From IMG/VR virus record IMGVR_UViG_3300025225_000065, positions 1 to 43,752 of that record: a stretch of 43,752 nucleotides of DNA. One strand, 5' to 3'. The position numbers and the translations under genes are program-made. Positions 3,786 to 43,752 of this stretch are shown piece after piece (the first letter of the stretch is position 1; every line of letters starts with the position of its first letter). Under the pieces are notes generated by a model. That model saw nothing but the letters and a program-made list of their open reading frames with translations, ran no database searches and was not told the DNA's origin. This DNA is from a virus.

Positions 3786-3937
3786 CGAACATCGTCCTTC
3801 TCGCCAAGCATTCAACTAGCCGTCGCATGTTTATCTGGCTGGCCCGTAAACGTCGGGATCAATGGCGGAAGGAGTGGGAGAAATGGTCCTTCAAGTCGTC
3901 GAGTCCGTCGCAAGCGAACACAAAATTAGCCAGTTGA
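3782..3937 (+). CDS. Small basic hypothetical protein (51 aa)
   Basis: It starts at the ATGA overlap with the preceding gene. It is Arg/Lys/Trp-rich (RKRRDQWRKEWEKW) and may bind nucleic acid (inference). The next gene lies partly inside it in another frame. Confidence 0.4.
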   Translation: MTNIVLLAKHSTSRRMFIWLARKRRDQWRKEWEKWSFKSSSPSQANTKLAS

Positions 3938-4020
3938 GAGCAGCCGTCCTTATCTTTGACCTTCTTACAGACATAAAAAAAGCCGCCCAAGATAGAGCGG
4001 ATAAGAAAAGAGATTACTGA
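3883..4020 (+). CDS. Small hypothetical protein (45 aa)
   Basis: The ATG has AGGAG upstream. The 45-residue product looks helical (VVESVASEHKISQLRAAV). It overlaps the 3782-3937 frame by 55 bases; one of the two may be spurious, but both have plausible initiation signals. Confidence 0.4.
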   Translation: MVLQVVESVASEHKISQLRAAVLIFDLLTDIKKAAQDRADKKRDY

Positions 4021-31674: not shown

Positions 31675-32796
31675 CTACCAAAAAAACTTATAAGGTGTGC
31701 CATTAAGTAAGTGTACGCCAATCAAGAAGTAGTAAGCCAAGGTTAGGCTGATTACCACAAACGTGACTAATAGTCGTATAGAAGCACCTTTAAATGAGGG
31801 GATAATTACATTAGGAATGAAGACGATCATGAAAATATAATAATAATTCGCTGCCCTCAATCCGATGTTGCTCACTGTATTAAAGATCATTAGCAGTACT
31901 GCGGTAGCAATTAGATTGTAGAGCAGCTTATTATTTGAATGTTTGTTGACGCTCCCTTTGTAGGTAAACATCCCTGCTATAAAGGTTAAAAACACGATAA
32001 GGAGTAAGGTATAGGCTCCTGTATTTGCAATCTCTAAACCCGGATGAAGGATTCTAGCAACAAAGCTTAAAATTTGGGTACGCAAAAAATACACAATTAC
32101 TAAAGCGCATGAATAAATGGCAAACACAAGTGGAGTAAACGTAATATTCACTAAGAAGTATGCCGGTACAAAGAATATGGCTGATTTGTGAAATAGCATT
32201 GCAAACGCAATTAAACCGAAAAACTTCCACTTCTTCCGCTCAACAATAAAGTCATATGAGAGTAACACCAACGAAAAAGCTATAGCTTGTCTCATTCCAC
32301 TGAAATAAAAGTTAAGGAAGCCTAAACTTATGAACAGGATCAGGGAAAGGAAAGGGATGGTTGAATGTCTTTTTACAAATTTGTATAAAGGGACAATCAT
32401 GATGAGATAAATAATGGCTGAATATGTAGTGAAATCGGTAGTAAATACCGTGATAATTTTGGTCAGAAAAATAAAACCACGTTCAAAGTTAAATACTAGA
32501 TGGTCAATGGACGTATTAAAAATATCTGCCCACCTAATATTAAACGCTGTAATATCAAATCCATTTTTGTATGCTGGTGTATCTGTCCCGACACTAACAT
32601 CTTTTAAGCTAAGTAAAAGGTAGATTTGAACAAACGGAAGAATGAGAAAAATTTTTGACCATTGTTTTTTATTAGCGTCAACGTTGTTCGTTTGTGATAT
32701 TAGATTCAATCTGCTTTTTGAGCGCATGTTGTTTACTGCCCAGTATATAAACCACCAATAAAATAAGAGTGCGATATTGAGGACGTATATCGACAT
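31675..32796 (-). CDS. EpsG/Wzy-like polysaccharide polymerase (lysogenic-conversion candidate)
   Basis: 373 residues from ATG 32796; AAGGAGG lies 13 bases upstream, slightly far. It is an integral membrane protein with about ten hydrophobic segments. 'LKDVSVGTDTPAYKNGF', 'ERGFIFLTKIITVF' and 'FYFSGMRQAIAFSLVLLSYDFI' are signatures of the EpsG family, which polymerises exopolysaccharide or O-unit chains at the membrane. It is on the opposite strand, strongly AT-rich, and boxed between terminators, all signs of an acquired moron. A TTGACA (minus strand, 32848-32853) could be its -35. It probably changes the host surface glycan and so phage adsorption. Confidence 0.85.
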   Translation of the reverse strand: MSIYVLNIALLFYWWFIYWAVNNMRSKSRLNLISQTNNVDANKKQWSKIFLILPFVQIYLLLSLKDVSVGTDTPAYKNGFDITAFNIRWADIFNTSIDHLVFNFERGFIFLTKIITVFTTDFTTYSAIIYLIMIVPLYKFVKRHSTIPFLSLILFISLGFLNFYFSGMRQAIAFSLVLLSYDFIVERKKWKFFGLIAFAMLFHKSAIFFVPAYFLVNITFTPLVFAIYSCALVIVYFLRTQILSFVARILHPGLEIANTGAYTLLLIVFLTFIAGMFTYKGSVNKHSNNKLLYNLIATAVLLMIFNTVSNIGLRAANYYYIFMIVFIPNVIIPSFKGASIRLLVTFVVISLTLAYYFLIGVHLLNGTPYKFFW

Positions 32797-32902
32797 AAAA
32801 CTTGTTATTCCTCCTTGAAGTTTCATGAAGATACATTGTACCTTACTTGTCAAATAAAGACTATATGTGTTTCACAGTTGGACCATACTACGCAGCAGTA
32901 GA

Positions 32903-32945: not shown

Positions 32946-34532
32946 ATGGCAACGCCACTCAGCGCCGCGCAAGCGGCAGAGGTTAAACGCAAGGCATCGC
33001 AAGGCATTCCGCTAACCGACCAATCAAACGCGGCTGCAATGAGCCTGTACAACGCGTCAAAGCCTATGTCTGCGACGCAGGCAACAGGTGCTACAACTCA
33101 GGCAAAGCCTGCAACAACGAGTGCGGTTACGCCGATGTCAGCCACACAAGCAATCCCCACGACGCCAATCCTTAATGCGGCAACCAACACGACCGGCGTA
33201 GCGCCTGCCACTGGGTACGGTGGAGCTACATACGGCACATCAGGGGCGGTTAACGCGGGAATCTCAGCTAATGCCGCAAGACTTGCCTCCGATCCAACGT
33301 TTAAACAATCCGAGATTGACCGAACCAAAAGCGTTATCGCGGCATTGCAGGCAGAAGGGAAGGACACGTCCGCACAGACGAAATATCTTTATCAGAACCT
33401 TGGATACACCGATCCGCAGGTTCAGACGCCAAGTGTCGGACAGACTGACAACGGCGGATATTACCCGTCGATGACGCCTCAACAGATCCAGACAGAGGCA
33501 CAATATCAGACGGACAAGCAACGCGCAGACCTGCTCAACTCGGTTACGACGCAGCTTAACGCACTGAAGAACAATGCTGCATACTCGAAGCAACTAACCA
33601 ACGATAGCCGAGTCCTGGAGGATCAGCAGCTAAACCGTACGCTCAACCCATTCAGTGGCAAAACGAGCTATGACAAGGCACTCGTAGGCCGTCAGCGGTC
33701 CATTGATGATGCAACGATGCAGGCGAATCTGAACAACCAACTCGATGCCGTGCAGCAGGATCTTTATAACTTCGACAAGTTGGCTCCGGAGAAGCAACAG
33801 GCGACGATCAACGAGCTTACCCGGATTGAACGGCAATACGGCCTGGATGTAGGCGCACTGACAGGCTCCTTCGGCGGTCAACGTACACTGGCCGGCCAAC
33901 AATTCGACTGGGGCAAGACGGTTGATGAGGCGAATCTGACAGGCAACTTCAAGGGTCAGCAGACGCTTGCGGCACAAAATCAGAAGTTTAATCAGGATCT
34001 TGCGACCAAAAATTATGATCTCAATAACACGCAGGTCATGGCTGCACTCACGGGACGGCTACCAGACGGGACGAAGACGACGGCACAGCAACAACAAGAC
34101 CTCGCAAACCTCTGGACAGTGGCAGAACAGACCGGCACGATACCGGAAACATTGGCAACCATGTACGGTATCCCGAAGGGAACGCAGACGCAGGCGGCGA
34201 AACAGTTTGCGATTAATGCGAGCATGAACCAGCAGCAAATGAACAATCAAAACAGCCAGTTTTGGGCGAATTACAACCAAAACGATAGCCAATTCCAGCA
34301 AAGCCTTGCGAATAAAAACCAACCGGAGATTCCTACAGCCGAAAGTACGTCCAAATATACCGATTCAATGGTTCAGCGCGATCCTGACACAGGGGCAATC
34401 ACGAACGTCGACGCATTAAGAGCCGTCATCAACAATTACGGACTCGATGACTACAACAAATACCTGTTGTATCAGCGTTATGGAATGTGGCCGAAAGATG
34501 TTGCGCCGCCTGTGAAACCATCGGGAAACTGA
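32946..34532 (+). CDS. Internal virion / ejection protein, Gln/Asn-rich
   Basis: 528 residues from ATG 32946, preceded by AGAGGTGAT. Low-complexity Ala/Thr N-terminus with repeats of 'MSATQA', then a helical Gln/Asn-rich body (LNNQLDAVQQDLYNFDKLAP, repeated 'FGGQRTLAGQQFDWGKTVDEANLTG' / 'FKGQQTLAAQNQKFNQ'). This composition is typical of podovirus proteins ejected into the host. It ends at TCG GGA AAC TGA, where a -1 frameshift would add a transglycosylase domain of about 128 residues (see 34523-34558). Function inferred from composition and neighbours. Confidence 0.65.
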   Translation: MATPLSAAQAAEVKRKASQGIPLTDQSNAAAMSLYNASKPMSATQATGATTQAKPATTSAVTPMSATQAIPTTPILNAATNTTGVAPATGYGGATYGTSGAVNAGISANAARLASDPTFKQSEIDRTKSVIAALQAEGKDTSAQTKYLYQNLGYTDPQVQTPSVGQTDNGGYYPSMTPQQIQTEAQYQTDKQRADLLNSVTTQLNALKNNAAYSKQLTNDSRVLEDQQLNRTLNPFSGKTSYDKALVGRQRSIDDATMQANLNNQLDAVQQDLYNFDKLAPEKQQATINELTRIERQYGLDVGALTGSFGGQRTLAGQQFDWGKTVDEANLTGNFKGQQTLAAQNQKFNQDLATKNYDLNNTQVMAALTGRLPDGTKTTAQQQQDLANLWTVAEQTGTIPETLATMYGIPKGTQTQAAKQFAINASMNQQQMNNQNSQFWANYNQNDSQFQQSLANKNQPEIPTAESTSKYTDSMVQRDPDTGAITNVDALRAVINNYGLDDYNKYLLYQRYGMWPKDVAPPVKPSGN

Positions 34533-34915
34533 GTAGCCCCTCTAGCGGCGGAGGGGCTTATACCAATTACTACAAGGCTGCGAAAGATGCAAAAGCGAAC
34601 CCGAAGAATTACGCCGTAGCTTCGGGAGCTATTAAAGCAGCTGTTGCAGACGGTGGGTATGATGAGTCGTGGATTAGAGACGCAGAGGAACTGGTCGCTC
34701 GAGAGTCGAGTTTTAACCCAGAAGCAGCAAACCCCAAGTCATCGGCTAAGGGGTTATTTCAGTTTTTGGACTCGACTCGTAAGAACTACGGCGGATCAAA
34801 AGTCGATTGGTCTGATCCATACCAACAGGCGGTCGCTGGACTTAAGTACATCAAAGATCGATATGGCTCGCCAGCAAAAGCCCTCGCCTTCTGGGATAAG
34901 AACGGCTACTACTAA
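34487..34915 (+). CDS. Lytic transglycosylase domain (SLT), probably made by -1 frameshift
   Basis: The frame is open from 34487, but no ribosome site precedes any start codon; entry is probably at 34529 by frameshift from the upstream gene, giving a 656-residue fusion. The SLT core is 'WIRDAEELVARESSFNPEAANPKSSAKGLFQFLDSTRKNYGG', with the catalytic Glu in ARESSFN. 'SDPYQQAVAGLKYIKDRYGSPAKALAFWDKNGYY' completes the fold. Virion transglycosylases open the peptidoglycan for DNA entry, as in T7 gp16. Confidence 0.85.
   Translation: MAERCCAACETIGKLSSPSSGGGAYTNYYKAAKDAKANPKNYAVASGAIKAAVADGGYDESWIRDAEELVARESSFNPEAANPKSSAKGLFQFLDSTRKNYGGSKVDWSDPYQQAVAGLKYIKDRYGSPAKALAFWDKNGYY
34523..34558 (+). promoter_or_regulatory. 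Programmed -1 ribosomal frameshift signal
   Basis: The heptamer G GGA AAC (34523-34529) is in the correct zero-frame phase, immediately followed by the TGA stop. Five bases on is a perfect 8-bp stem AGCCCCTC / GAGGGGCT (34535-34542 / 34551-34558) with an 8-base loop. Slippage to -1 reads GGG AAA CTG AGT and enters the transglycosylase frame. It meets all textbook criteria: X XXY YYZ, spacer, stimulatory stem. Confidence 0.8.
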
Positions 34916-34929
34916 AAGGATGGTGCGAT

Positions 34930-37900
34930 ATGAGGACTGCGGAAGATTTTTTCAAACAAGAGCAGGAACTTATCGGGGGGACGAAGGCTTCCGCAGTCCA
35001 ATCTTCGTCATCTTCTACGAAGAAACGATCGGCTGAAGACTTTTTCAAAGAAGAACGGATCAAGGCAGGCTTAGAGAAGCCGGAGACGACCACTGTTAAT
35101 TCAGAGGTTGCTCCTGTATCTACTAACAGCGTCGTACGCAAACCGGTCGAACTGCCGACAATGGGCCTTACGAAGATCCAGCAGGACCAGAAAGCAGCGC
35201 AAGAAGGCAACGACATTGTGACTCTTCCCCATGAAGTTCAGAAACTTGTGACGCCAAATACGAGTCCTCGTCAGCCCTATCAGAATCCCGAATCCGACAA
35301 GATGAAGCAGACGCTGACGGACGTTAAGGCGATTGTGCCGGGCGTCAACGTTAATCGCGATCTTCTGGATCAGATCGGTAATCGGAGCAGCAACAAGGCC
35401 GTTGCGTTCCTCCAAGACGTTAAGAAGGCACACGACAGCGCAATCAAGGGCATCGGGAACTTCATCGACAAGGGATATCAGGTGGCAGGTCAGATTGCAG
35501 GCGGTGTGACGGGCCTGTCACCTGCCAAGGCTAAGGAAATCGGCGAAGGGATGGGGTTACAGGCTCCATCCTTTGTCACGTCTAGTCCTGTATTCCAAGA
35601 ACCGCAGGACAAAGCGACGAAAGTAGCCGGTAAGATCGGCGAGTTCTACGGCATGGCTCTTCCTGGTGAACTGGCGGAACGTCTTGTAGCTAAATCGATC
35701 GGCAAGAACATCACGAATAAGGCGTTGCAGACAGCCGTCCGAGGCGCTGCGGCAGGCGCAGCAAGCACGGCACCACAGGACGCAGTAAAGGTCGCTACGG
35801 GGCAGGAAAGCACGTCAGACGCATTGCTGAACACTGGCCTAAACGCAGGCATTGGTGCTGTTGCCGGTCCTGCATTGATGGGTATCGGTTCTCTCGTTCG
35901 CAAGGTAGGCGAGAATGCGTCCAAACGCATCGTGGAGAAAACGATTAAAGCAACACAATCGCTTGATGAGGTTGGCAAGGAAGCGAACCTTGTTAACGGA
36001 GCGAAGCAAAGCATCGTGGACATTGACGAGCAAATTGGCAACCTGAGCCGTAGTAATCCGAACTATGCGCAGGAACTAGAGGCACTGACCAATGACCGGA
36101 ACGCGACGATCAGCTATGTGCGAGGATTCGAACCGGACTTTGATGCTTCGCCGGTGACTGCTTCTAGGGTTTCCGGAGTCTCGTCTCCATCTGTCACGAC
36201 GGAAGAACCTGTTCAGATTGCTACAACGGCAAAGGTTGCCACACAGAAAGCGCAGCCACTAGCAAATGCCAATCCAAGCACAGCGGAACGCGGATTCATC
36301 CGTTCGCTCGAGGAATCGAATCAACTGGATGTGCCCACTGCCGTCGGACTTTCAAACTCAAAGAAGCGCAATTTTGACAGGATTACAAATGAAGAATCTG
36401 TAGCGATGGCGAATAATCGCATTACAAACGACATCGACAAAGCCGAGTCTTTCGTACTGGGAACCGGCAGGCCAACGGCAGAGAAGACAGCGACGGGTAT
36501 TCGCCTTATTCAAGAACTACAGAAGCGCGGACAGACGGAACGGGCCGTCACGGTCGCTGAAAAGATGGCTAAGCAGCTTACCGAGGCCGGCCAAGCCGTT
36601 CAAGCCGCCTCCATCCTTGATCGCCTCTCTCCAGAGGGTGTGCTGATACGTGCTCAGCGCAAAATACAGGCGATTAACGAGACGCTTCCAAAGAATGCAG
36701 AAGACTTGAAGCTCAGCACCAAGGATGCCGACAAGCTCCAAGAAGCCGCGAAAATAATCGTAAAGTCAGCGGACGACAAAGACCGTGCCGCCGCAGTAGC
36801 GCGCCTTATGGACCGCGTGAAGGATGGTCAAAAGCTGATGCCAGAGGAACGGCAAACGTTGAAGGAGTTCCTTGACGACCTGAAGACGCTGCAGAAGAAC
36901 AACAGGCCAGAGAAGCCTCCGAAACCATCTCGCGAAGAACTATCGGCAGCTCGCAAGCGTGATAAGTTGGTCAGTCACCTTGAGGAAGAGGCCGCTAAAG
37001 CCCGTGCTATTTGGCAGGCAAAGCGTAACCTCGGATTCGCAGCAAAACTGGATGAGCCTGATCTCGTTCTACTGGCTCGTATGACGGCTCCTTATATCGT
37101 TAAAGGCGCGGTCAAAATTGCCGATTTCACGGAAAAGTTGGTCAGCGAGTTTGGCGAATCTGTGCGCGGATCTGCTCAGGATATCTACGACAGGGCTGTA
37201 CAGATCAACGGCAAGGGGATCACGCGCCGAGAGCTGGCAAACGTCGAGCGAATCGCCGAAAACTTCATCAAGGGCAAGAACCTTGAAGCGAACGACGCCA
37301 ATTTCATCCGCAGTATGGCAAACAAAGTAGCCAATCTGAGCGGTGACGCTCGCCGTCAGGCATCGCAGGACCTGCAAGAGGTACTAAACGGCTATGAGCG
37401 TATAGGGATCGGCAGAAAGCTTTCTACGGCCCAATACATTGCGATGCTGCTTAACCCTTTGACACAGGTTCGCAATATCGTCGGTAACGAACTGCTGTAC
37501 CGTCTCGAACGCCTAAACCGTATTATCGCAACGCCGGTCGATATCGTCGCATCGAAGGTTACAGGAGGCCCGAGGACAGTCACCTTCCGTAACGGATGGG
37601 GCAGCTATTTTAGCCAAGCTCAGGACTATTGGGGAAGCCTTGGAGAAGGTCTTAAAGCTGGATGGCGCGGCGTCGATCCTGAGGGTGTTCAATCCAAGTA
37701 TGATATCGGCAGTCTGGCATTCTCTCCGAATAACCCGTTAACCTACTTAGAGAAGACACTAGGCGCGGCTCTCAAAGGCTTCGATTATGCTTCCTACCAA
37801 CGCGCCGTCAAGCGTAGACTTAGCGAAATGGCGTACTTGGATGCGATCAACAAGGGTGTAAAGGGCAAAGATAACGTCCGGGCGCACATGGAAACGTTCA

Positions 37901-39249
37901 TGACGAACATGGACGACATGACGGAGAAGCTTGCGAAGGACTACGGCGAATACGTCACGCTGCAGAATGACAGCATCTTGTCGCAGAAACTGAGCGGATT
38001 CAAGCGCGGCGCGAACAAAATTAGCACGTTCGGCCTGACCTCGGACTTCGGTGCAGGCAACCTGATCTTGCCGTTCGCTAAAACGCCTGCTAATCTGCTG
38101 CTTCGCGCTATGGACTACTCGCCTATCGGTATCGGTAAGGCGCTGTATCAGCTCAATGACGTGCTGAGAGCGAGGGAAACTGACCTCACTAGGGCCGACG
38201 TCATCCAATCAGTGACACGGGCGCTTATGGGTACCGGGTTCGGGGCTGTTGCTTACTGGCTTGCGGACAAGGGTGCGCTGACCGGTTCGCTCGACAAGGA
38301 CATTGACGTCCGCAACCTTCAACGGCTGTCGGGACAAACTGACTTCCAGATAAACGGCTCAGCAATCGTCCGTATGCTTGAGGCAGTAGCCAGCGGCGGT
38401 GACATTGACGCAGCAGCCAAGATGAAGCCAGGAGATACTTTATGGGCCTATTCGTGGGCGCAACCGACGTCGGCACCTATGGCGATCGGTTCGAATATCG
38501 CTCAGTCTGTGAAGGACGACAAAGGCGCTCTCAGCGTCGCTGGAGACGCAGCATGGGGCGGACTGAACACACTGCTTGATAGTTCGGTCCTGTCGGGTAT
38601 TCAGGAGGCATTTAAGACCAGTCCGGGCGAAGACAATACATGGAAATCGGTCATTACGAACCTCGTCAAACAGGTTCCGGGCATGTACAATCCATCGATT
38701 GTGCGCCAAATCAATTTGATGTTCGACGACAAGGTGCGCGAGACATACGATCCTGATGCATTGACGAAGACAATTAACCCGACGCGAGCGAATATCCCTT
38801 ACTTCGCTCAGCAGCTACCGCAGCGTGTAAGCACGCTAGGACAGCCGCAAACGAAGCTTAATTCGTTCGTTGACGTGTTCCTAAGTCCGTCTCAGCGTAG
38901 CGTCTACAAGCCCACGGCAGAGGCACAGTTTGTTATTGACCTGCTTAAGGAAACTGGGGATAGTTCGCTTGCGCCGCGTACTGTAGCTAAGTACCTGAAA
39001 GGGACAGACAAACTCACGGGCGTGGAAAAGAAGGTCAATCTAACGCCGGAGCAATACGTCAAATATCAAACGCTTGTCGGACAGGATCTGGTCAAACGGA
39101 TTCAAAAGATCAATCCGGCGCTGTCCACTGAAAAGAAGGCAGAAAAGCTGATGAAGGCCCTTAACGATTCCGGGGAATATGGCCGAAATATCATGAAGAA
39201 AGAAGTCGGTTTGAAGACGCCGGCCAAGAAGTTCAGCACAGGATTTTAA
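34930..39249 (+). CDS. Giant internal virion / ejection protein (1439 aa)
   Basis: ATG after AAAGGATGG. Two N-terminal copies of R(T/S)AEDFFK-x-E (residues 2-11 and 33-42) look like docking repeats. Gly/Ala-rich hydrophobic segments occur at about 270-325 and near 1095-1120 ('ALMGTGFGAVAYWLADKGAL'), and an amphipathic helical stretch near 835-880. The rest is helical and charged. No tape-measure repeat pattern and no tail chaperones nearby, so I favour an ejected protein that forms or lines the DNA-delivery channel. It is the largest gene in the element. No enzyme motif is recognised. Confidence 0.65.
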   Translation: MRTAEDFFKQEQELIGGTKASAVQSSSSSTKKRSAEDFFKEERIKAGLEKPETTTVNSEVAPVSTNSVVRKPVELPTMGLTKIQQDQKAAQEGNDIVTLPHEVQKLVTPNTSPRQPYQNPESDKMKQTLTDVKAIVPGVNVNRDLLDQIGNRSSNKAVAFLQDVKKAHDSAIKGIGNFIDKGYQVAGQIAGGVTGLSPAKAKEIGEGMGLQAPSFVTSSPVFQEPQDKATKVAGKIGEFYGMALPGELAERLVAKSIGKNITNKALQTAVRGAAAGAASTAPQDAVKVATGQESTSDALLNTGLNAGIGAVAGPALMGIGSLVRKVGENASKRIVEKTIKATQSLDEVGKEANLVNGAKQSIVDIDEQIGNLSRSNPNYAQELEALTNDRNATISYVRGFEPDFDASPVTASRVSGVSSPSVTTEEPVQIATTAKVATQKAQPLANANPSTAERGFIRSLEESNQLDVPTAVGLSNSKKRNFDRITNEESVAMANNRITNDIDKAESFVLGTGRPTAEKTATGIRLIQELQKRGQTERAVTVAEKMAKQLTEAGQAVQAASILDRLSPEGVLIRAQRKIQAINETLPKNAEDLKLSTKDADKLQEAAKIIVKSADDKDRAAAVARLMDRVKDGQKLMPEERQTLKEFLDDLKTLQKNNRPEKPPKPSREELSAARKRDKLVSHLEEEAAKARAIWQAKRNLGFAAKLDEPDLVLLARMTAPYIVKGAVKIADFTEKLVSEFGESVRGSAQDIYDRAVQINGKGITRRELANVERIAENFIKGKNLEANDANFIRSMANKVANLSGDARRQASQDLQEVLNGYERIGIGRKLSTAQYIAMLLNPLTQVRNIVGNELLYRLERLNRIIATPVDIVASKVTGGPRTVTFRNGWGSYFSQAQDYWGSLGEGLKAGWRGVDPEGVQSKYDIGSLAFSPNNPLTYLEKTLGAALKGFDYASYQRAVKRRLSEMAYLDAINKGVKGKDNVRAHMETFMTNMDDMTEKLAKDYGEYVTLQNDSILSQKLSGFKRGANKISTFGLTSDFGAGNLILPFAKTPANLLLRAMDYSPIGIGKALYQLNDVLRARETDLTRADVIQSVTRALMGTGFGAVAYWLADKGALTGSLDKDIDVRNLQRLSGQTDFQINGSAIVRMLEAVASGGDIDAAAKMKPGDTLWAYSWAQPTSAPMAIGSNIAQSVKDDKGALSVAGDAAWGGLNTLLDSSVLSGIQEAFKTSPGEDNTWKSVITNLVKQVPGMYNPSIVRQINLMFDDKVRETYDPDALTKTINPTRANIPYFAQQLPQRVSTLGQPQTKLNSFVDVFLSPSQRSVYKPTAEAQFVIDLLKETGDSSLAPRTVAKYLKGTDKLTGVEKKVNLTPEQYVKYQTLVGQDLVKRIQKINPALSTEKKAEKLMKALNDSGEYGRNIMKKEVGLKTPAKKFSTGF

Positions 39250-42192: not shown

Positions 42193-42221
42193 ATGACAAG
42201 ATCCGTTCCCACTGCTACAAT
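42193..42221 (+). promoter_or_regulatory. Promoter of the recombinase gene
   Basis: ATGACA (42193-42198), 17-base spacer, TG-C-TACAAT extended -10 (42216-42221). It is a sigma-A-type sequence. I see no convincing sigma-E match, although spoIVCA in B. subtilis is sigma-E/SpoIIID dependent. Confidence 0.55.
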
Positions 42222-42255
42222 TATTTATTACAGCGGTATAGGAGGGAACGGCAGC

Positions 42256-43752
42256 ATGATCGGGATCTATCTGCGGGTATCGACCGAGGACCAATCGAAG
42301 CACGGATACAGCTTGAAAGACCAGGAGAGACAGTGCAGAGAGAAAGCCCGGACGAGTGATGTAAAGGTCTATACGGACGATGGATATTCCGGTGAGTACT
42401 TAGACCGCCCGGCCCTTGCGCAGCTCCGTAGAGACGTCAAAGAGCGGCTCATAGAAAAGGTAGTATGCTATGACCCGGACCGTCTGAGCCGTAACCTTAT
42501 GAATCAGCTCATCATTACAGAAGAATTCCGCAAGCGCGGCGTTGATATGGTTTTTGTAACAGGTGAATATGACGATACGCCTCTTGGGAAGCTGTCGTTC
42601 AATATAAAAGGCGTTATCGCTGAGTACGAAAAAGCCGTCATCAACGATCGCATGAGTCGTGGACGCAGAGAAAAAGCGCGTCAGGGTAAAGTAGTAAAAA
42701 ATTCATACTTATACGGGTACACTTTTAATAAAGAAAAGGATCAATACGAGATCAACGAATACGAAGCAAATATTGTCCAGACGATATTCGACTTATTCAC
42801 AAAGCCCAGTGCAGTTAAGGGGATAAATGGGATAGCCAAGTACTTAACAGCTCAAGAAGTACCAACCAAGCGCGGTGCGCCGGTTTGGCACCGGCAGGTG
42901 GTACGTCAAATTCTACTTAATGAAGCGTATACCGGCGTGTATTATCAAAATAGATACGACACTGAAGGGATGCTCGGAAATAAGCACAAACCTGATGACG
43001 AGAAGGTTAAAGTGTCTGAGCGGCCTGAAGAAGAATGGATTGAAACAGAGATTCCGGCCATCATTACGGAAGTCCAATTTAATCAAGCCATGATGCTACT
43101 AGGAGAATCTCGGAGAAGATATTCAAAAGATTCACTTCGTAAATACCTACTTTCTGGACTGGTTCGCTGCGGGGAATGCGGGAATACGATGACTGGTCGG
43201 CAGTCCAAGAACTGGGGAACGTACGTATTGGAATACAGTGATATTAAAAATTATGCCGGCGCGCTTTTTAAGGGCTGTGGAATGCATGTCCAATGCGAGG
43301 AAATCGATAAAGGCGTTTGGGAGACGGTCGTCGCATGGCTGGATAACCCGGATCAAATAGCTGCAGCTGCGGAAGATCGGGACGCTATGTCCTACGAGCA
43401 AACAGAACTCGAGCGTGTAGAAAGAGAAATTGAGAAAACGAAGGCAGCACGTAAACGCCTCATTAAACTGTTCTCGCTTGGTGAGGATATCGGGGAAGAA
43501 GACATCCGTAGCGAATTGAAGGAGCTTGCGGACAAAGAAGAGAAACTAAATCGGCAAGCAGAGGAACTTACGAAGGCGTTAACTGCGCAATCTAATCAGC
43601 AATCAAGCAAGGCGATGATCCAAGATGCTGCGGATTACTTTCTGCACAAGAACCGGGACGCCTTAACGTTTGAGGATCGCCAAGAACTCATACGTGCTAT
43701 CGTAAAAGAGGTACGTATCTATAAGGATCGAGTGGATATTATTTCATTCTGA
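42256..43752 (+). CDS. spoIVCA: Large serine recombinase, SpoIVCA-like skin excisionase
   Basis: 498 residues from ATG 42256 (ATAGGAGGG upstream), matching the 500 of SpoIVCA. Resolvase domain (1-140) with catalytic Ser9 in 'YLRVSTEDQS' and 'DPDRLSRN'; recombinase domain (about 160-270, 'GIAKYLTAQEVPTKRGAPVWH'); zinc ribbon with CGECG and a second pair near 'GCGMHVQC'; long coiled coil (about 385-460) that controls synapsis. It points at the missing N-terminal half of sigK, as in B. subtilis. It should excise the element precisely in the mother cell and rebuild sigK. The stop codon is two bases from the core repeat. Confidence 0.92.
   Translation: MIGIYLRVSTEDQSKHGYSLKDQERQCREKARTSDVKVYTDDGYSGEYLDRPALAQLRRDVKERLIEKVVCYDPDRLSRNLMNQLIITEEFRKRGVDMVFVTGEYDDTPLGKLSFNIKGVIAEYEKAVINDRMSRGRREKARQGKVVKNSYLYGYTFNKEKDQYEINEYEANIVQTIFDLFTKPSAVKGINGIAKYLTAQEVPTKRGAPVWHRQVVRQILLNEAYTGVYYQNRYDTEGMLGNKHKPDDEKVKVSERPEEEWIETEIPAIITEVQFNQAMMLLGESRRRYSKDSLRKYLLSGLVRCGECGNTMTGRQSKNWGTYVLEYSDIKNYAGALFKGCGMHVQCEEIDKGVWETVVAWLDNPDQIAAAAEDRDAMSYEQTELERVEREIEKTKAARKRLIKLFSLGEDIGEEDIRSELKELADKEEKLNRQAEELTKALTAQSNQQSSKAMIQDAADYFLHKNRDALTFEDRQELIRAIVKEVRIYKDRVDIISF
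43745..43750. other. Right attachment core candidate (CATTCT)
   Basis: The second copy of the 6-base core at 370-375, lying at the last codons of the recombinase gene. On the minus strand it reads AGAATG-AAAT, containing the AATGA core known from B. subtilis skin. The N-terminal sigK half is expected to the right. Confidence 0.55.

Follow-up and report, generated by a model that had tools for sequence, protein, structure and literature searches.

Low-level −1 slippage is known from the tail-assembly chaperones of the lambda G/GT kind, in which it often occurs on GGGAAA-type heptamers and makes a minor, C-terminally extended protein (PMC5009743). Frameshift-extended structural proteins of phages have also been described (PMC5009743, PMC7881722). 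A minor extended virion protein is made beside the plain one in T7 (10B), T3, Lactobacillus phage A2, the Listeria phages A118, A500 and PSA, and Privateer, by a −1 or a +1 shift depending on the phage. Podovirus virion proteins with a wall-cutting domain are exemplified by T7 gp16 and phi29 gp13, in which the enzyme lies within a single ORF, and hence in every copy. In the podovirus vB_AspP-H4/4 of Alteromonas (genes 39/40; PMC5658483; MF278336), a putative −1 frameshift joins a wall-cutting enzyme and an internal virion protein.

The locus described here lies in a 43,752-nt stretch of virus DNA (IMG/VR record IMGVR_UViG_3300025225_000065, positions 1–43,752), hereafter the window. Its sequence points, with high confidence, to programmed −1 frameshifting at G_GGA_AAC, stimulated by a hairpin, which would yield a major 528-residue protein and a minor 656-residue form ending in an SLT domain. 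The lambda-type chaperones are not virion proteins and their extension binds a tail protein, whereas the extension in the window is an enzyme and the phages concerned appear short-tailed. The capsid and tail extensions differ in that Ig-like or short decoration domains are added, and not peptidoglycan hydrolases. In H4/4 the order is reversed: the zero frame encodes the endolysin, and the frameshift extends it by the virion protein; it is one phage, whose frameshift was not reported as conserved or tested. It is a looser precedent, and was the only frameshifted virion hydrolase found in a literature search that had most subscription papers outside its scope; the same search gave no report of a conserved frameshift adding a hydrolase tail to a virion-type protein. 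A preliminary description of the locus had held that phage frameshifting is best known for tail chaperones and that its use in an ejection protein would be unusual; besides the chaperones, the capsid and tail-protein extensions make up most of what is known of it in phages.

The overlap in the window and its surroundings

The 528-codon ORF closes with CCA TCG GGA AAC TGA (ending Ser-Gly-Asn-stop). The preliminary description had placed G_GGA_AAC in the correct phase directly before this stop codon, and a perfect 8-bp stem after a further five bases (TGAGT, 34530–34534), and both were confirmed (Table 1). RNAfold extended the stem of the local hairpin to 9 bp at −16.9 kcal/mol (z −2.7), which none of 200 shuffles equalled; the whole 118-nt stretch folded no better than its shuffles, so that only the local hairpin is special. 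As 128 codons are added by the −1 frame, the fusion would be 656 residues long, as had been proposed.

The added codons encode a complete SLT domain. It was matched by Pfam SLT (PF01464, 6e-10) and by NCBIfam AggPromo_Cterm (3.8e-19) over nearly the whole model (6–80 of 80), and the Glu of its RES motif was invariant in 24 SLT sequences, which is the pattern of an SLT lytic transglycosylase. The sole ATG, GTG or TTG ahead of the domain in the −1 frame is a GTG at 34487, upstream of the heptamer and without an SD, in agreement with the earlier statement that the domain has no ribosome site of its own. The −1 ORF had been given as 34487–34915; this end is correct, and 34487 is only the mechanical start of the open frame, the functional start of the tail being 34529.

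The 528-residue protein was matched by nothing in PHROGs, Pfam or NCBIfam, nor by tblastn against the INPHARED phages, and the sole match of its Cohnella homologue was a PHROG of unknown function. An AlphaFold model was mostly helical at low confidence (pLDDT 65), with which Foldseek returned nothing significant. With the default cut-off, no PDB match was obtained by profile search, the weak ones below it looking like chance, and comparisons by hhalign and hmmsearch with T7, P22 and phi29 proteins, including T7 gp16 and phi29 gp13, were negative, as was the positive control, Page gp18. The name of ejection protein used in the preliminary description may be kept as a reasonable guess, drawn from gene order and the low-confidence helical model and not from homology.

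The ORF sits 3′ of tail spike/fibre genes and 5′ of a giant protein and lysis genes, an arrangement resembled by the gene order of Page. The window phage is probably a short-tailed bacterial virus. No tape-measure match was obtained among the window proteins searched. A tail-assembly chaperone lies ahead of the tape-measure gene in a long-tailed phage; here a 1439-aa protein and lysis genes come next, and the tail is an enzyme. This 1439-aa protein, which adjoins the cassette in many relatives, had no PHROGs, Pfam or NCBIfam match and is 89% identical to its counterpart in a Cohnella prophage. Its relative in L195 (the record of locus L019) has one in-frame TGA inside the matched region. The EpsG-family gene is oriented against the structural genes, and is perhaps cargo that alters surface sugars. 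The window phage is probably temperate, as judged from its serine-recombinase-like integrase.

Table 1. Coordinates of the features discussed (positions in the window, except for gp19)
Feature	Position	Strand	Remarks
EpsG-family protein	31675–32853	−	Pfam 3e-37; between tail-fibre-like gene and 528-aa gene
Zero-frame ORF, 528 aa	32946–34532	+	ATG 32946 behind SD AAAGAGGTGA; Q/N-rich, mostly helical, structural region
Slippery heptamer G_GGA_AAC	34523–34529	+	In phase; G_GGA_AAC or G_GGA_AAG in 31 of 42 overlaps
−1 frame tail, SLT lytic transglycosylase domain	34529–34915	+	128 codons from CTG 34529, then TAA 34913–34915; Pfam SLT, NCBIfam AggPromo_Cterm
Zero-frame stop TGA	34530–34532	+	Abuts heptamer; same position in most relatives
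Hairpin, 5 nt past heptamer	34535–34558	+	Arms AGCCCCTC (34535–34542) and GAGGGGCT (34551–34558)
1439-aa protein	34930–39249	+	Own SD; context only; no family
Serine-recombinase-like integrase	42193–43752	+	PHROG integrase 1e-104, also DNA invertase families; extends past window end
gp19 "lytic tail fiber protein"	6858–7781 of L201		Also in L202–L206 (Pagevirus genomes)

Conservation of the slippery site and the hairpin

Scanning IMG/VR, together with GTDB at one genome per species, gave 42 distinct phage and prophage loci, the window included, in which the SLT family overlaps the end of the upstream ORF in the −1 frame. Their hosts, where named, are Paenibacillaceae (Paenibacillus, Cohnella, Gorillibacterium) and Bacillaceae, and homologues of the 528-residue protein precede the same cassette in Paenibacillus-type loci. 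A canonical slippery heptamer was located inside the overlap in 35 loci (G_GGA_AAC 22, G_GGA_AAG 9, A_AAT_TTT 2, A_AAG_GGG 1, G_GGT_TTT 1); the remaining seven have a tetramer near the stop only (T_TTT 6, G_GGG 1). When the motif frequency in the remainder of the same upstream ORFs is taken as the chance level, 0.19 GGGAAA and 1.9 heptamers of any kind are expected across all 42 overlaps, and 31 and 35 were seen, which is far beyond chance. The shortest overlaps (10 nt in L191, 13 nt in L080, 16 nt in L067) leave almost no room for a shift outside the heptamer, and that of L067 holds the heptamer only. In L153 the heptamer lies one codon off the stop, indicating that the stop is not what keeps it in phase.

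The nearest relative of the window is a prophage of Cohnella ginsengisoli. The 39-nt block of heptamer, stop and hairpin is identical between the two, with a tail dS of 1.33, and the comparison places the tail under purifying selection (dN/dS 0.05). Most of the closest portal relatives show no SLT tail (some of them are fragments), so that inheritance of the cassette may depart somewhat from the phage phylogeny. A first SLT search of INPHARED listed mainly tape-measure SLTs.

Covariation of the stem was evaluated with 24 distinct sequences having a GCCCC/GGGGC stem, by a shuffle test that ignores the relatedness of the sequences. The first pair inwards is standard in 23 of the 24 (A-T 11, G-C 9, T-A 2, G-T 1), which none of 20,000 shuffles equalled, and the second in 21 (C-G 12, G-C 9), equalled by five of 20,000. 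Since the first inner pair links the third base of a Pro codon with the third base of another codon, protein coding alone is insufficient to account for it. At least eight changes of pair type were counted on the SLT tree, so the covariation is not a single inherited change. Furthermore, the arms of L068, L171 and L173 are very unlike these (AGCCAGCGG and similar) and still pair perfectly.

An in-phase heptamer, a candidate stimulator downstream, and conservation of both the signal and the −1 frame protein are thus found together, as in programmed −1 frameshifting. Pointing the other way are the seven loci with a tetramer only, the Bacillus-type relatives, in which no hairpin is evident, two loci with apparently separate genes, and the low efficiency of the heptamer in E. 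coli (see below). The preliminary description had named loss of the heptamer and stem in related phages that keep the frame offset as grounds for giving up the frameshift; both are kept in most relatives, and the exceptions retain another shift-prone site.

Fused, +1 and Pagevirus layouts

The cassette is joined to the upstream protein in other ways as well. L158 (702 aa) and L167 (786 aa) are single-frame fusions that retain TCGGGAAAC (GGGAAAC) and are placed among frameshifting relatives on the SLT tree, and five Bacillus-type relatives are likewise single ORFs. The cassette of L214, L216 and L219 (at about 3890–3990 in each) lies in the +1 frame, and the upstream ORF ends in CCC TAG or CCC TAA, a known kind of +1 shift site; these loci are a probable +1 frameshift version. 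In L216 and L219 the protein encoded ahead of the cassette shares homology with its counterparts in the −1 and fused relatives. Such coexistence of −1, fused and +1 layouts indicates that what is conserved is the production of an extended protein, whichever way it is achieved. The hydrolase domains also differ among relatives (SLT, M23+SLT, or NlpC/P60+SLT), indicating an exchangeable cassette.

A similar arrangement was recognized in six cultured phages, the Bacillus megaterium podophages Page, Pony, Palmer, Pavlov, Pookie and Pascal. Their gp18 is matched by the upstream protein of the Cohnella prophage, and through this prophage it belongs with the upstream family of the window. Relative to gp18, their gp19 is in the −1 frame; the two overlap by 19–46 nt, a stretch that contains G_GGT_TTT, and gp19 is probably, on this sequence evidence, a −1 frameshift extension of gp18 made at that heptamer. 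The likeness to the window covers the homologous upstream family, −1 overlap, heptamer, hydrolase tail and gene order, whereas the heptamer itself is G_GGT_TTT, the tail consists of NlpC/P60 and another SLT type (both domains are present in the gp19 frame of Page), and two genes are annotated. The genome announcements of Page, described there as a podophage, and of Pascal report a lytic tail protein and mention no frameshift.

Mechanism, alternatives and meaning

In the proposed mechanism, the P-site tRNA-Gly would re-pair with GGG in place of GGA and the A-site tRNA-Asn with AAA in place of AAC, after which the ribosome would resume at CTG. The hairpin would stimulate this shift, and the adjacent stop codon probably would too. 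Tandem slippage would most likely give a 656-residue product that reads Pro-Ser-Gly-Asn-Leu-Ser-Ser at the junction. The preliminary description had expected Ser-Gly-Lys-Leu-Ser, which should be replaced by Ser-Gly-Asn-Leu-Ser, because AAC is decoded before tandem slippage; a Gly-Lys-Leu junction would arise only if slippage preceded its decoding. The word "textbook" was also too strong: in E. coli, G_GG.A_AA.C belongs to the low-efficiency motifs and G_GG.A_AA.G to the best ones (PMC4066793). The fusion is therefore probably minor, and the simplest reading suggests an enzyme-bearing form that is a minor species, made at what would still be a useful slippage rate. Both forms most likely enter the virion, where, as the domain suggests, a few enzyme-bearing copies would open the thick Gram-positive wall at genome delivery.

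The strongest alternative makes the SLT cassette a gene of its own, for which ribosomes start internally or else terminate and reinitiate at the overlapping stop; the hairpin would then be a terminator or a chance structure. End-overlapping genes are often translationally coupled, L183 and L184 apparently have a cassette gene with its own SD, and databases annotate Pagevirus gp19 separately. But in nine tails the whole reachable stretch, counted from where the frame opens to about 160 nt inside the domain, is free of ATG, GTG and TTG, and the overlap of L067 offers nothing besides the heptamer. Genomes that are nearly identical disagree on the annotated gp19 start (Page and Pony have TTG, the other four GTG), and these starts truncate the NlpC/P60 domain. 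Moreover, the hairpin is without a T-run and lies inside the coding tail, and natural in-frame fusions exist. A separate gene is hence improbable.

Slippage of the polymerase instead of the ribosome could also join the two frames, and some relatives have runs of 5–6 T or of 5 G at the site. Transcriptional slippage requires longer homopolymers, however, than the runs of three (GGGAAAC) of the window and most relatives, and the codon phase and the RNA hairpin suit ribosomal slippage, so that this route is very improbable. A single ORF split by an indel, through sequencing error or gene decay, would explain why the two ORFs jointly resemble a single fusion of the kind seen in L158 and L167, but it is the least credible of the three and is already refuted by the comparison, given that 42 independent loci, many of them in isolate genomes, share the −1 offset, that the second assembly L003 is identical, and that the tail is under selection. 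Stop-codon read-through is ruled out because the tail is in a different frame.

The core claim of the preliminary description, a programmed −1 frameshift that fuses a transglycosylase tail to the 528-residue protein, is accordingly strongly supported by the conserved heptamer, stem covariation, missing alternative starts and natural in-frame fusions. On a broader scale, the locus probably represents a widespread recoding module of short-tailed phages of Gram-positive bacteria, in which a plain virion protein and a rarer enzyme-bearing one are made with exchangeable cassettes, usually by −1 slippage and in a few cases by +1 slippage or fusion, and which sets the enzyme number per particle.

If this is true, the amount of wall-cutting enzyme in each virion would be determined by frameshifting, a point of interest for how phages get through thick cell walls without premature destruction of the cell. 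It would imply that Pagevirus gp18 and gp19 are mis-annotated as separate genes, and these cultured phages are at hand for direct testing by mass spectrometry. It would also add a family whose −1-shifted, +1-shifted and plainly fused forms replace one another, a good subject for work on the gain and loss of recoding.
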